A stretch of DNA of 64,000 nt from Burkholderia sp. WAC0059. GTDB taxonomy: Bacteria > Pseudomonadota > Gammaproteobacteria > Burkholderiales > Burkholderiaceae. Of the stretch, positions 45,218 through 64,000 are shown in pieces (positions within the stretch are counted from its first letter, which is position 1; the number at the start of each line of letters is the position of its first letter). The notes beneath the pieces were generated by a model. That model did no database searches. It saw nothing but the letters and a program-made list of their open reading frames with translations, and was not told the DNA's origin. The DNA lies in assembly GCF_002870125.1 (NCBI RefSeq), contig NZ_PNEO01000002.1, positions 124,001 to 188,000 on the forward strand, written 5' to 3'. The position numbers and the translations under genes are program-made.

Positions 45218-45253
45218 GCACAACGTCAGTGCGGTGCGGCACCGTCCCCGTGC
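45218..45253. promoter_or_regulatory. Two tandem NtrC-like enhancer boxes upstream of nirB
   Basis: GCAC-N7-GTGC at 45218-45232 and again at 45239-45253, offset by 21 bp (two helical turns), about 200-235 bp upstream of the sigma-54 promoter. This spacing and symmetry match NtrC enhancer pairs. An equal pair with the same 21-bp offset precedes the nitrate carrier promoter. Confidence 0.65.
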
Positions 45254-46881: not shown

Positions 46882-46948
46882 AAAAAAAAGCCCCGAAACG
46901 CTCGCGCGATGCCGCTGTACGCGGTATCGCCCGGTGACGTTTCGGGGC
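46882..46948 (-). terminator. Leader terminator upstream of the nitrate carrier gene
   Basis: In the minus-strand RNA, GCCCCGAAACG (from 46938-46948) pairs over 11 bp with CGUUUCGGGGC (from 46890-46900), followed by eight U (46882-46889). The terminator lies about 130 bases before the start codon. Its 5' arm overlaps the second ANTAR-type hairpin. Confidence 0.85.
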
Positions 46949-47027
46949 GTCGTTGCCCACAACCCGCTTGAAGCAGGCGGGTGTCAAAAAGGTAAGTGAC
47001 CATGCAAGAGCCGCCTTTGGCTCTTGC
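46945..47027 (-). promoter_or_regulatory. Nitrate-carrier leader RNA with two ANTAR-type hexaloop hairpins
   Basis: Reading the minus strand, P1 (47027-47004) is GCAAGAGCC-AAAGGC-GGCTCTTGC, a 9-bp stem. P2 (46958-46945) is GGGC-AACGAC-GCCC. Both hexaloops have A1 and G4. A third hairpin (46982-46962, ACCCGC/GCGGGT) lies between. The 3' arm of P2 is the start of the terminator's 5' arm, so formation of P2 would prevent termination. The layout is the same as in the nirB leader, and nasT is transcribed divergently from this region. Confidence 0.85.
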
Positions 47028-47036
47028 GCGATGCAA

Positions 47037-47052
47037 TGCAATAGCCATGCCA
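47037..47052 (-). promoter_or_regulatory. Sigma-54 promoter of the nitrate carrier gene
   Basis: On the minus strand TGGCATGGCTATTGCA has GG and GC separated by exactly 10 bases and one mismatch to the TGGCACG-N4-TTGCA consensus. The predicted transcript start, near 47026, coincides with the first base of hairpin P1 at 47027. Confidence 0.78.
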
Positions 47053-47209: not shown

Positions 47210-47245
47210 GCACCGCGGTGGTGCGGCGCAGCACTGTCGTCGTGC
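47210..47245. promoter_or_regulatory. Two tandem NtrC-like enhancer boxes upstream of the nitrate carrier
   Basis: GCACC-N5-GGTGC at 47210-47224, a perfect match to the NtrC symmetry, and GCAC-N7-GTGC at 47231-47245, offset by 21 bp, 158-193 bp upstream of the sigma-54 promoter. The pair could also act on the divergent nasT gene. From 47246 to 47601 no further signal was recognised. Confidence 0.68.
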
Positions 47246-47601
47246 GGCGCGGCCCCGGCCGGCAGCGGGTTGGCTGGTCCGGATATTGCTGATCCGGAGG
47301 AGCACGCGCGGCAACGGAGCCGGCGCCGGTTCGTCGAAGCGTTTCCCGAGCGGGGCCCGCACGCGATGCCGAACAGGAAGCGCAAAAGGAAAAGGACAAC
47401 GGTGTCCGCCTGTGCCGTCGCACGGGCGAGCACCGTTTTTTATTGTCAGCGCGCCAGCCGCGCGAAACCGACCATGCGAAGCACGAGAAGCATAGCCAGC
47501 ACGATGGACGAACCCGTATTCGAAGGCCGCCGACCGACCGCGGGCGCGGCCGGCACCCCGGCGCGCGGCCGGAGCGCGCAGATCGCGAAGGCCGTCCCCG
47601 C

Positions 47602-48195
47602 ATGAAGCAGCCGGACGCTCCCGCCATGCTGCGCGTGCTGCTCGTCACCGACACCGAGAAGCCGATCGGCGAGCTGCGCGACGCGCTCGCCGGCCTCGGC
47701 TACGAGATGCTGCCCGCGGCGGCCACGCCGTCTGCGCTGCTCAAGGCCGTGGAGGACCAGCGCCCGGACGTCGTCGTCATCGACACGGATTCGCCCTCGC
47801 GCGACACGCTCGAGCATCTCGCGGTGATGAACGAGACCGCGCCGCGGCCGGTGCTGATGTTCAGCAACGACGCCGACCTGCAGCGCATCCGCGAGGCCAT
47901 GCGCGCCGGCGTGAGCGCCTATCTCGTCGAGGGGCTCGCGGCGCACCGGCTCGCGCCGATCCTCGAAGTCGCGCTCGCGCGCTTTTCCCATGAGGCGCAG
48001 TTGCGCCGGCGGCTCGCCGAAGCCGAGGCCGAGCTCGAGAACCGCAAGGTCATCGACCAGGCCAAGCGGTTTTTGATGACGCGTCGCCGCCTCTCCGAAC
48101 ACGACGCCTACGCGACGCTGCGCAAGCAGGCGATGGACCACGGCATGAAGATTGCCGACGTCGCGCGCCGGCTGCTCTCGGCAGCCGACCAGTGA
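47602..48195 (+). CDS. nasT: ANTAR-domain RNA-binding antiterminator NasT
   Basis: A 197-residue protein: a receiver-like domain (about residues 9-125) and a C-terminal ANTAR domain (RKVIDQAKRFLMTRRRLSEH, then DAYATLRKQAMDHG). NasT binds paired hexaloop hairpins and suppresses leader terminators, and NasS holds it when nitrate is absent. The receiver keeps Asp residues in VVVIDTDSPS, but the conserved Lys of true receivers is missing (AYLVEGL), in line with control by protein binding, not phosphorylation. The start is uncertain (ATG 47602 or 47626). Confidence 0.88.
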   Translation: MKQPDAPAMLRVLLVTDTEKPIGELRDALAGLGYEMLPAAATPSALLKAVEDQRPDVVVIDTDSPSRDTLEHLAVMNETAPRPVLMFSNDADLQRIREAMRAGVSAYLVEGLAAHRLAPILEVALARFSHEAQLRRRLAEAEAELENRKVIDQAKRFLMTRRRLSEHDAYATLRKQAMDHGMKIADVARRLLSAADQ

Positions 48196-48220: not shown

Positions 48221-49339
48221 ATGAACACGCCGATTTCTGCCGTATCCGCCGATGCCAGCGAGGCCGCCGGCGACCGCCCCGAGCTCACGCACCTGCGGCT
48301 CGGCTTCGTCGCGCTGACCGACGCGGCTCCGCTCGTCGCCGCGAAGCTGCTCGAATTCGGCCATCGCCACGGGCTCACGCTCGAATTGTGCCGGCAGCCT
48401 TCGTGGGCCGGCATTCGCGACAAGCTACTGTGCGGCGAGATCGACGCCGCGCATGCGCTCTACGGGCTCGTCTACGGCGTGCAGCTCGGCATCGGCGGCC
48501 CGCGCGACGACATGGCCGTGCTCATGGTGCTCAACCGCAACGGCCAGGCCGTCACGCTCTCGAACCCGCTCGCGCGCGCGCTCGACGAAGGCGCGCGGCT
48601 GCGCGAGGCGCTGGCCGCGCTCGGCCGGCCGCCCGTGTTCGCGCAGACGTTCCCGACCGGCACCCATGCGATGTGGCTTTACTACTGGCTCGCGGCGCAG
48701 GGCGTGCATCCGCTGCAGGACGTGCGCAGCGTCGTGATTCCGCCGCCGGAGATGGTCGCGGCACTCGCCTCGGGCGAGCTCGACGGCTTCTGCGCGGGCG
48801 AGCCCTGGAACGCCGCAGCCGAGGCGCGCGGGGCGGGCCGCACCGTCGCGTTCACGAGCGAAATCTGGCCCGATCACCCGGAGAAGGTGCTGGCCTGCCG
48901 GCGCGCGTTCGCGACGCGCTACCCGAACACGGCGCGCGCGCTGATCCGGACCCTGCTCGAGGCCTGCCGCTGGCTCGACAGCCCCGACCATCTCGCGACG
49001 CTCGCCGGGCAAATGGCCTCCACCGAGGTGATCGGCGTGCCGGCCGACCTCATCGCGCGGCGGCTGCCGGGCGGCGCCGATCTCGCGCGTCCCGGCGCGC
49101 GGGCGGTCAGCTTCTTCGCCGACGGCGCCGTGAACTATCCGCGTCCGTCCGAAGGCGCGTGGTTCGTCGAGCAGTACCGGCGCTGGGGACTCTACGGCGA
49201 ACCCTGCGACGCGACCGCGCTCGCGGCGGCCGTCAACCAGACCGCGCTTTACCGCGAGGCGGCGGAGCGGATCGGCGTGCGCGTGGCGGACGAGCCCCGG
49301 CGCGCGGTGCTTTGCGACGGCCGGGTCTGGGAGGGGTAA
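48221..49339 (+). CDS. nasS: Nitrate sensor NasS (NrtA-like, cytoplasmic)
   Basis: A 372-residue protein with the fold of ABC nitrate-binding proteins (LRLGFVALTDAAPLVAAK, FPTGTHAMWLYYWLAAQG, LDGFCAGEPWNAAA) but no signal peptide, as expected for the cytoplasmic sensor NasS. In known systems it sequesters NasT until nitrate or nitrite binds. It is 25 bp downstream of nasT and co-transcribed with it. ATG 48221 is preferred to an upstream in-frame start overlapping nasT. Confidence 0.88.
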   Translation: MNTPISAVSADASEAAGDRPELTHLRLGFVALTDAAPLVAAKLLEFGHRHGLTLELCRQPSWAGIRDKLLCGEIDAAHALYGLVYGVQLGIGGPRDDMAVLMVLNRNGQAVTLSNPLARALDEGARLREALAALGRPPVFAQTFPTGTHAMWLYYWLAAQGVHPLQDVRSVVIPPPEMVAALASGELDGFCAGEPWNAAAEARGAGRTVAFTSEIWPDHPEKVLACRRAFATRYPNTARALIRTLLEACRWLDSPDHLATLAGQMASTEVIGVPADLIARRLPGGADLARPGARAVSFFADGAVNYPRPSEGAWFVEQYRRWGLYGEPCDATALAAAVNQTALYREAAERIGVRVADEPRRAVLCDGRVWEG

Positions 49340-63597: not shown

Positions 63598-64000
63598 ATG
63601 TTTCGCGCTTTAAAACACGTTTTCAACGACAGTTCCGCCGATGTCAAAGGCAAGGTCATCGGCATTTACCTCTTTCTCATCGCCGTCAACCTTGGTGCCT
63701 GGGCCTGGGCGCTCATCGCTTTCCATAGTCGCCCGGTCTTGCTCGGCACCGCATTGCTGGCCTATGGTTTTGGTCTACGCCACGCGGTGGATGCAGACCA
63801 TATCGCCGCTATCGACAACGTTACGCGCAAGCTGATGCAGGAGGGCAAGCACCCCGTGGGGGTCGGTTTCTTCTTTTCCATCGGTCATTCCCTGGTGCTG
63901 CTCATCGGCACTGTCGTCGTCGCCATCACGGTGATGAGCCTGCAAAGCGGCTTTAAGTCCTTCAACAATATCGCGGGCATCGTGGGCACGCTTGTGTCGG
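63598..64000 (+). CDS. NiCoT-family nickel/cobalt permease (HoxN/NixA type), 3' end outside the window
   Basis: The first 134 residues are visible. The family signature is LRHAVDADHIAAIDNVTRK, with the metal-binding HAVDADH, followed by GVGFFFSIGHSLVLLIGTVV, also conserved. The open frame runs off the window end. GGAGG (63586-63590) lies 7 bases before ATG 63598. Control by an upstream cobalamin riboswitch argues for cobalt as the main substrate. Confidence 0.92.
   Translation, partial: MFRALKHVFNDSSADVKGKVIGIYLFLIAVNLGAWAWALIAFHSRPVLLGTALLAYGFGLRHAVDADHIAAIDNVTRKLMQEGKHPVGVGFFFSIGHSLVLLIGTVVVAITVMSLQSGFKSFNNIAGIVGTLVS

Follow-up and report, generated by a model that had tools for sequence, protein, structure and literature searches.

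The nitrate assimilation locus

The window (the whole 64-kb stretch of DNA analysed) carries nasA and, downstream of it, nirB with its own leader, while nasT and nasS are divergent (Table 1). NasA matches TIGR00886 with 255.6 bits, below the curated cut-off of 311.7. NasT has an ANTAR domain (PF03861, 65.7 bits) that aligns with 4akk (nitrate regulatory protein), 6wsh (response regulator, presumably EutV) and 1s8n (putative antiterminator). The alanines and the aromatic residue described as strictly conserved in the available text of PMC3369931 are, by eye, retained in it. NasS is presumed to be the nitrate/nitrite sensor. The PF03861 and PF13379 matches confirm the original prediction that nasT-nasS is encoded next door to the nasA leader. 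Besides NasT, the genome has one further ANTAR-domain match, on another contig (C5:57942-58100, minus strand, locus L002; 60.2 bits). An open frame at 63598, after the riboswitch listed in Table 1, resembles a membrane metal transporter by eye.

Table 1. Genes, leader elements and predicted regulatory sites in the window.
Feature	Coordinates	Strand	Remarks
nasA, NarK/NasA-type MFS nitrate transporter, 464 aa	46753-45359	-	TIGR00886, PF07690
nirB, nitrite reductase large subunit	44833-42269	-	
nasT, receiver and ANTAR protein	47602-48195	+	start may be 47626
nasS, NMT1-like protein	48221-49339	+	PF13379, E 3.2e-86
nasA leader, sigma-54 promoter TGGCATGGCTATTGC	47052-47038	-	predicted +1 at about 47026
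nasA leader, P1 hairpin GCAAGAGCC-AAAGGC-GGCTCTTGC	47027-47004	-	9 bp, -15.8 kcal/mol, A1/G4 loop
nasA leader, middle hairpin (Pm) ACCCGC..GCGGGT	46982-46962	-	-9.6 kcal/mol; loop not A1/G4
nasA leader, P2 hairpin GGGC-AACGAC-GCCC	46958-46945	-	-6.1 kcal/mol, -8.6 with bulged extension; candidate antiterminator hexaloop
nasA leader, intrinsic terminator, 12 outer pairs, long structured loop	46948-46890	-	-42.4 kcal/mol
nasA leader, U8 run of terminator	46889-46882	-	
Two NtrC-like sites GCAC-N7-GTGC, 21 bp apart	47210-47245		between divergent nasT and nasA promoters
Two NtrC-like sites GCAC-N7-GTGC, 21 bp apart	45218-45253		upstream of nirB promoter
nirB leader	45019-44878	-	R2 26.6 bits, R1 27.6 bits
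nirB leader, sigma-54 promoter	45019-45005	-	
nirB leader, P1, loop AAGGAC	44992-44973	-	
nirB leader, middle hairpin	44962-44947	-	
nirB leader, P2, loop AAAGGC	44931-44918	-	terminator to 44878
Candidate ANTAR leader of nasTS	47275-47441	+	R2 18.2 bits, E 0.025
nasTS leader, sigma-54 promoter TGGTCCGGATATTGC	47275-47289	+	
nasTS leader, P1 CGGC-AACGGA-GCCG	47309-47322	+	
nasTS leader, P2 GGAC-AACGGT-GTCC	47394-47407	+	inside terminator
nasTS leader, terminator and U6	47398-47441	+	
Cobalamin riboswitch RF00174	63319-63514	+	125.9 bits

Anatomy of the nasA leader

Read on the minus strand, positions 47052-46882 hold a sigma-54 promoter, hairpin P1, a middle hairpin, hairpin P2 lying inside a terminator, and the U8 run, in this order. 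The sigma-54 promoter and the two A1/G4 hexaloops (AAAGGC and AACGAC) of the original prediction were all recovered when coordinates were re-checked on this strand. The consensus of sigma-54 promoters is TGGC-N7-TTGC, and with the C of the -12 GC taken as position -12 the +1 comes to 47026, uncertain by 1-2 nt. The start had been placed on the first base of a 9-bp hairpin; the 9-bp stem is there, but the predicted +1 is its second base. A second sigma-54-like match overlaps the promoter at 47047 and, if used, would cut into P1. The P1 hairpin is presumed to be the hexaloop that recruits NasT at the 5′ end of the transcript. In a crude hairpin search, a shifted pairing of the middle-hairpin stretch outscored the one given in Table 1.

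The uninterrupted stem of P2 is only 4 bp. Its 3′ arm, GCCC at 46948-46945, also opens the terminator stem, as had been proposed, so that P2 and the terminator are mutually exclusive. The eight U that had been described are present, but the terminator stem has 12 outer pairs and not 11. The terminator, at -42 kcal/mol, is more stable than P2, at -6 to -9 kcal/mol, so P2 has to be held in place by something before the terminator can form. The 146-nt leader as a whole is unusually stable (folding z = -6.5; 0/200 shuffles as stable).

Dual-hairpin ANTAR leaders were defined by Ramesh 2012, in the part of that text available, by stems of at least 3 bp and a variable linker. The nasA leader has two A1/G4 hexaloops and a P2-terminator overlap in the right orientation, and a C-G pair closes both loops, as in the NasR SELEX motif.

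Recurrence of the leader in the window and in related genomes

At gathering thresholds, Rfam 15 gave no ANTAR-leader match in the 64-kb window, the sole match being the cobalamin riboswitch. A covariance model (R2) was built from 16 same-genus nasA-type leaders, with no window sequence included. It ranked the nasA leader first in the 64 kb (33.9 bits, E 1.5e-5, the E-values of this model and of R1, described below, being rough), the nirB leader second and the plus-strand stretch upstream of nasT third. The expectation that an ANTAR covariance model would find the leader was thus borne out by R2 and not by Rfam. Over the whole genome, R2 found the nasA leader at E 0.0013, the nirB leader at E 0.04 and, third, C2:372552-372625 (22.7 bits, E 0.25). 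By eye, the same kind of leader at C2:372552-372654 (minus strand, L259) stands before a gene resembling assimilatory nitrate reductase.

A two-hexaloop scan of the window with stems of at least 5 bp missed the nasA leader because P2 has only 4 bp; it was picked with a P2 stem of 4 and a required terminator overlap. A DNA similarity search of the genus with the leader matched 7/58 genomes, including its own, and the other six matches were pieces of 36-86 bases.

A pattern of promoter plus P2, in which the promoter-to-P2 spacing is fixed and P1 and the linker are left free, was found in 109/117 genomes of the genus (own included), with no match to the reversed control pattern. A slightly looser pattern occurred in 54/399 genomes of the order, with control matches in 3 genomes; several of these order-level matches lie inside genes, and seven loci read as chance (e.g., L181-L183). 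Loci were retrieved for part of the matches listed for both patterns; they held 120 distinct matches, and dropping 11 without a recognised terminator left a set of 109 leaders, 70 from the genus (the nirB leader of the window included) and 39 from outside it.

By its anatomy, the nasA leader is a NasT/ANTAR-type attenuator, with its function predicted. This is the best reading because NasT and NasS adjoin it, its terminator overlaps the second of two A1/G4 hexaloops, and the arrangement recurs in the genus and the order; the same points uphold the ANTAR antitermination leader originally predicted. The additional statement that the entire switch is legible base by base went too far, since where the transcript starts, whether NasT binds and whether nitrate matters are predictions. 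An ANTAR protein probably binds the leader and would stop termination on a signal.

P1 is anchored at the predicted transcription start

In 85/109 leaders, measuring from the first base of the promoter, an A1/G4 hexaloop with a stem of at least 5 bp is found 32-38 nt away, against 0.23% of dinucleotide-shuffled sequences. Where P1 is present, its stem mostly starts at the predicted +1 to +5 (74/97 leaders). Among the best hairpins of the P1 region in the 109 leaders, every six-base loop is A1/G4 (76/76), a feature that the search pattern did not require; the rest have other loop lengths (27) or lack such a hairpin (6). In the 16 nasA-type leaders behind R2, both sides changed at 3/6 pairs of the P1 stem, and 100% of cells were paired.

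NtrC-like sites upstream of the promoters

The sequence GCAC-N7-GTGC is, by consensus, what we take to be an NtrC site, its binding being predicted only. Five such sites occur in the 64 kb (2.6 expected), a number that is not unusual by itself since 12/100 shuffles had as many, and four of the five are arranged as two pairs with a spacing of exactly 21 bp. Together with the sigma-54 element, they give the nasA promoter the features of a predicted NtrC/sigma-54 promoter. A perfect site is present in 59/82 leaders (the window's own included), compared to 0.8% of mononucleotide-shuffled sequences; the 82 are the leaders with enough upstream sequence in which promoter and P2 loop are separated by at least 90 nt. 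The spacing is also kept, as 30/32 site pairs in these leaders are 21 bp apart.

Leaders of nasTS and of other genes

A candidate leader with the same elements precedes nasTS, and predicts a nitrate-driven positive feedback on these genes. One relative (L107), whose NasT was the most similar in the genus search (80%), has by eye the same order of elements upstream of nasT, the stem of P2 measuring 3 bp, and also carries tandem NtrC-like sites. A strict-rule scan upstream of nasT flagged 1/92 loci, namely L107, where the flagged hairpin is P1 and P2 is too short to satisfy the rule. With only this relative flagged among the 92 loci, the nasT leader looks like a clade feature.

Leaders of the same type were also seen in further genomes of the genus before cobA-like genes (uroporphyrinogen methyltransferase, by eye; L138, L141, L147, L151, L163 and L170), pointing to a wider NasT regulon that includes siroheme supply. 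At other loci, in several relatives (L104-L106, L144, L148 and L160), a nasA-type leader precedes a protein starting with approximately SGQxIGELINLSGRQRMLSQR, which by eye resembles a segment of PilJ/NarX-like sensors.

The middle hairpin and leaders with three hexaloops

A third hairpin between P1 and P2 had been noted in both the nasA and nirB leaders as lying outside the usual two-hairpin description, which agrees with the available text of the literature. It is present in the nirB leader, but at a different position, 10 nt after P1 and 15 before P2 compared to 21 and 3 in nasA, and may be a different element.

In the 16 leaders behind R2 (alignment A6), both sides of the middle helix changed at 6/8 pairs and 79.7% of cells were paired; these leaders were picked from 23 aligned relatives for in-register middle hairpins, a choice that biases the figures towards this helix. 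None of 500 shuffles reached the observed covariation, which fell when partners were slid, although such counts overstate independence as many rows are related. RNAalifold predicted three hairpins on this alignment. A middle stem of at least 6 bp occurs in 39/67 genus leaders (35% of shuffled linkers) and in 19/30 leaders from outside the genus (19% of shuffled linkers). A role as a spacer is therefore not general, the hairpin being absent in 28/67 genus leaders and present in 35% of shuffled linkers.

The loops differ between lineages. In the genus, the middle loops vary in length and none is A1/G4 in the leaders listed. Among six-base middle loops, 14/14 outside the genus are A1/G4 compared to 0/5 inside, not all of these being independent. 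In a broader set of leaders that mixes sources and close relatives, 33/131 have a middle A1/G4 loop, against 1.1% of shuffled sequences. When a middle stem of at least 5 bp was required, A1/G4 loops were present in P1, middle and P2 in 13 of the 39 leaders from outside the genus, representing seven families by database labels, and in 1/70 genus leaders; the remaining outside leaders have them in middle and P2 only (4), P1 and P2 only (17) or P2 alone (5). Examples with three hexaloops come from Xanthomonas (L052, L054, L057-L061) and Pseudoxanthomonas (L047, L048). The nasA leader of the window is not one of them, its middle loop not being A1/G4.

A second covariance model (R1), trained on leaders with three hexaloops, had matches in 27/369 genomes of the class, some with only two A1/G4 loops, and in 8/378 genomes of a phylum sample, all of which belong to that class or to closer groups. 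It did not reach the nasA leader of the window at E ≤ 1 and found no place in the same genome at E ≤ 0.001; in the smaller search of the window, it found the nirB leader (E 0.00096). Of 70 hits derived from R1, 45 were called three-hexaloop under a lenient rule; these hits are a biased set that contains the loci on which the model was trained.

Spacing between P1 and P2

From their coordinates, the P1-P2 linkers measure 45 nt (nasA), 41 nt (nirB) and 71 nt (nasT), all outside the 5-12 nt of EutV-type leaders. According to the available text on EutV, induction was drastically reduced with linkers of 3 or 14 nt (PMC3369931), antitermination in vitro was lost when the linker was extended by 20 nt, and the dimer is proposed to hold a single hexaloop at any time, binding P1 first and then moving to P2 (PMC8934654). 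In the 13 leaders with three hexaloops, 1-14 nt (median 6) separate the middle hairpin from P2, suggesting that a middle station with the right loop bridges the gap between P1 and P2. Shorter two-hairpin leaders also exist (L019, L032), and linker lengths in the set of 109 are partly imposed by the fixed promoter-to-P2 spacing of the pattern.

A proposed mechanism and its alternatives

From the anatomy, conservation and covariation observed in the leader, we infer that nitrate assimilation is very probably controlled by an attenuator with two inputs, an NtrC/sigma-54 start and read-through by NasT. Under nitrogen shortage, phosphorylated NtrC on the tandem upstream sites would fire the sigma-54 promoter. 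The transcript would begin with the P1 hexaloop hairpin, allowing NasT to be recruited as the RNA emerges, an early step suggested by the conserved anchoring of P1 at the start. Without nitrate, NasS would hold NasT, the P2 sequence would be absorbed by the 12-bp terminator, and polymerase would halt at U8. With nitrate, NasS would free NasT, and an ANTAR dimer would load on P1 and move to, or also hold, P2. Once formed, P2 would keep the terminator open so that nasA is transcribed, with nirB following the same logic. A bare middle hairpin in the 45-nt linker may only shorten the path from P1 to P2, and in other lineages a middle A1/G4 loop could be an intermediate NasT site.

Two explanations would do without an RNA-binding protein. 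Attenuation by a ribosome on a leader peptide would draw on the ATG at 47003, from which a long frame runs across the leader, but such frames are common in the 64 kb, no clear ribosome-binding site is seen by eye before this ATG, and the leader lengths of relatives in A6 differ by non-multiples of three, which makes it very improbable. Each element of the leader, taken alone, is common in G+C-rich DNA, but an ordinary terminator accompanied by chance hexaloops is next to impossible to reconcile with a promoter-to-P2 pattern found in 109 of 117 genus genomes and never in reverse among them, or with the R2 match and the covariation.

What weighs against the two-input attenuator is the 4-bp P2 stem and linkers far above the EutV range, where 14 nt was already damaging in the text available. 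NasT may, unlike EutV, tolerate a long flexible linker whose structure drifts, leaving the middle hairpin without a role. Linkers are also long in the genus leaders that lack a 6-bp middle hairpin (a length partly imposed by the pattern), and the two mutated hairpins of Paracoccus nasA are 46 bp apart in the available text of PMC5424462. This reading is plausible, if somewhat doubtful, as the middle hairpin stays in place through compensatory changes in the 16 chosen leaders and six-base middle loops outside the genus are consistently A1/G4. A relay in three steps, from P1 to the middle loop to P2, would account for the excess of three-hexaloop leaders outside the genus and for middle-to-P2 linkers near the EutV range, and would suit a EutV dimer thought to move from P1 to P2 holding one hexaloop (PMC8934654, as far as its text was available); the lineage of the window would have lost, or never had, the middle A1/G4 loop while keeping the hairpin. 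We consider it rather unlikely, since 22/39 leaders from outside the genus lack a middle A1/G4 loop with a stem of at least 5 bp, so that two hexaloops seem to suffice there, and a second NasT site could work by plain avidity.

A wider picture can be offered tentatively. The NasT leaders of beta- and gammaproteobacteria might include a distinct three-hairpin class, in which NasT, recruited by a hexaloop at +1, would be passed via a middle hexaloop to the antiterminator hexaloop. In the genus studied here, where the middle hairpin is bare, NasT would cross a 45-nt gap forbidden to EutV, and nasTS would amplify its own expression through a leader of the same kind.

Comparison with known ANTAR systems

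The kind of switch is already known, and its A1/G4 P1-P2 antitermination mechanism is described in the available text of PMC3369931 and PMC8934654. Ramesh et al. already report matches in Burkholderia and before nitrate/nitrite genes, and the sRNA EutX is said to hold an additional single hexaloop. We found no nas leader described with a third A1/G4 hexaloop in the available text of PMC3369931, PMC8934654, PMC3369936, PMC7496416, PMC3795266, PMC4724949, PMC6759348, PMC5424462 and PMC7074383. The three-hairpin, long-linker form is to that extent a variant without a description, and no priority is claimed for the third hexaloop.

The Paracoccus denitrificans nasA leader resembles that of the window in having NasT and NasS, hairpins before the structural genes, and an NtrC input, which acts there at nasT (PMC3795266, PMC5424462, from the text available). 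In those sources, nitrate dissociates NasS-NasT and NasT binds the nasA leader (PMC3795266), while the two leader hairpins are placed 137 and 91 bp ahead of nasA, leader hairpin mutants are reported, and a chromosomal mutant in the first hairpin lost growth on nitrate (PMC5424462). It differs in that nasTS lies about 200 bp upstream of nasA, and the parts available of both papers name two mutated hairpins, HI and HII, and no third A1/G4 loop. The NtrC/NtrX site of nasA is called as yet unidentified in the accessible text of PMC5424462.

The Klebsiella oxytoca NasR-nasF system, as given in partial text of PMC3369936 and PMC7496416, shares with the window the A1/G4 P1 and P2 loops, the P2-terminator overlap and the C:G closing pairs of the NasR SELEX motif, and its control by Ntr and nitrate matches the logic proposed here. 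Its regulator is, in contrast, a one-component NIT-ANTAR protein acting on a two-hairpin motif.

The EutV leaders of Enterococcus faecalis have the same A1/G4 hexaloops and P2/terminator overlap, but a linker of 5-12 nt that does not tolerate lengthening, compared to 45 nt with a hairpin inside it in the window (PMC3369931 and PMC8934654, available text). Whether an ANTAR dimer uses the two hairpins simultaneously or successively is debated, and in the EutV structure the dimer cannot hold both at once. Natural test pieces for this question are leaders that have three hexaloops or that carry a hairpin within a linker expected to be too long, and the variants with P1 only, middle only or all three provide a ready set of constructs.
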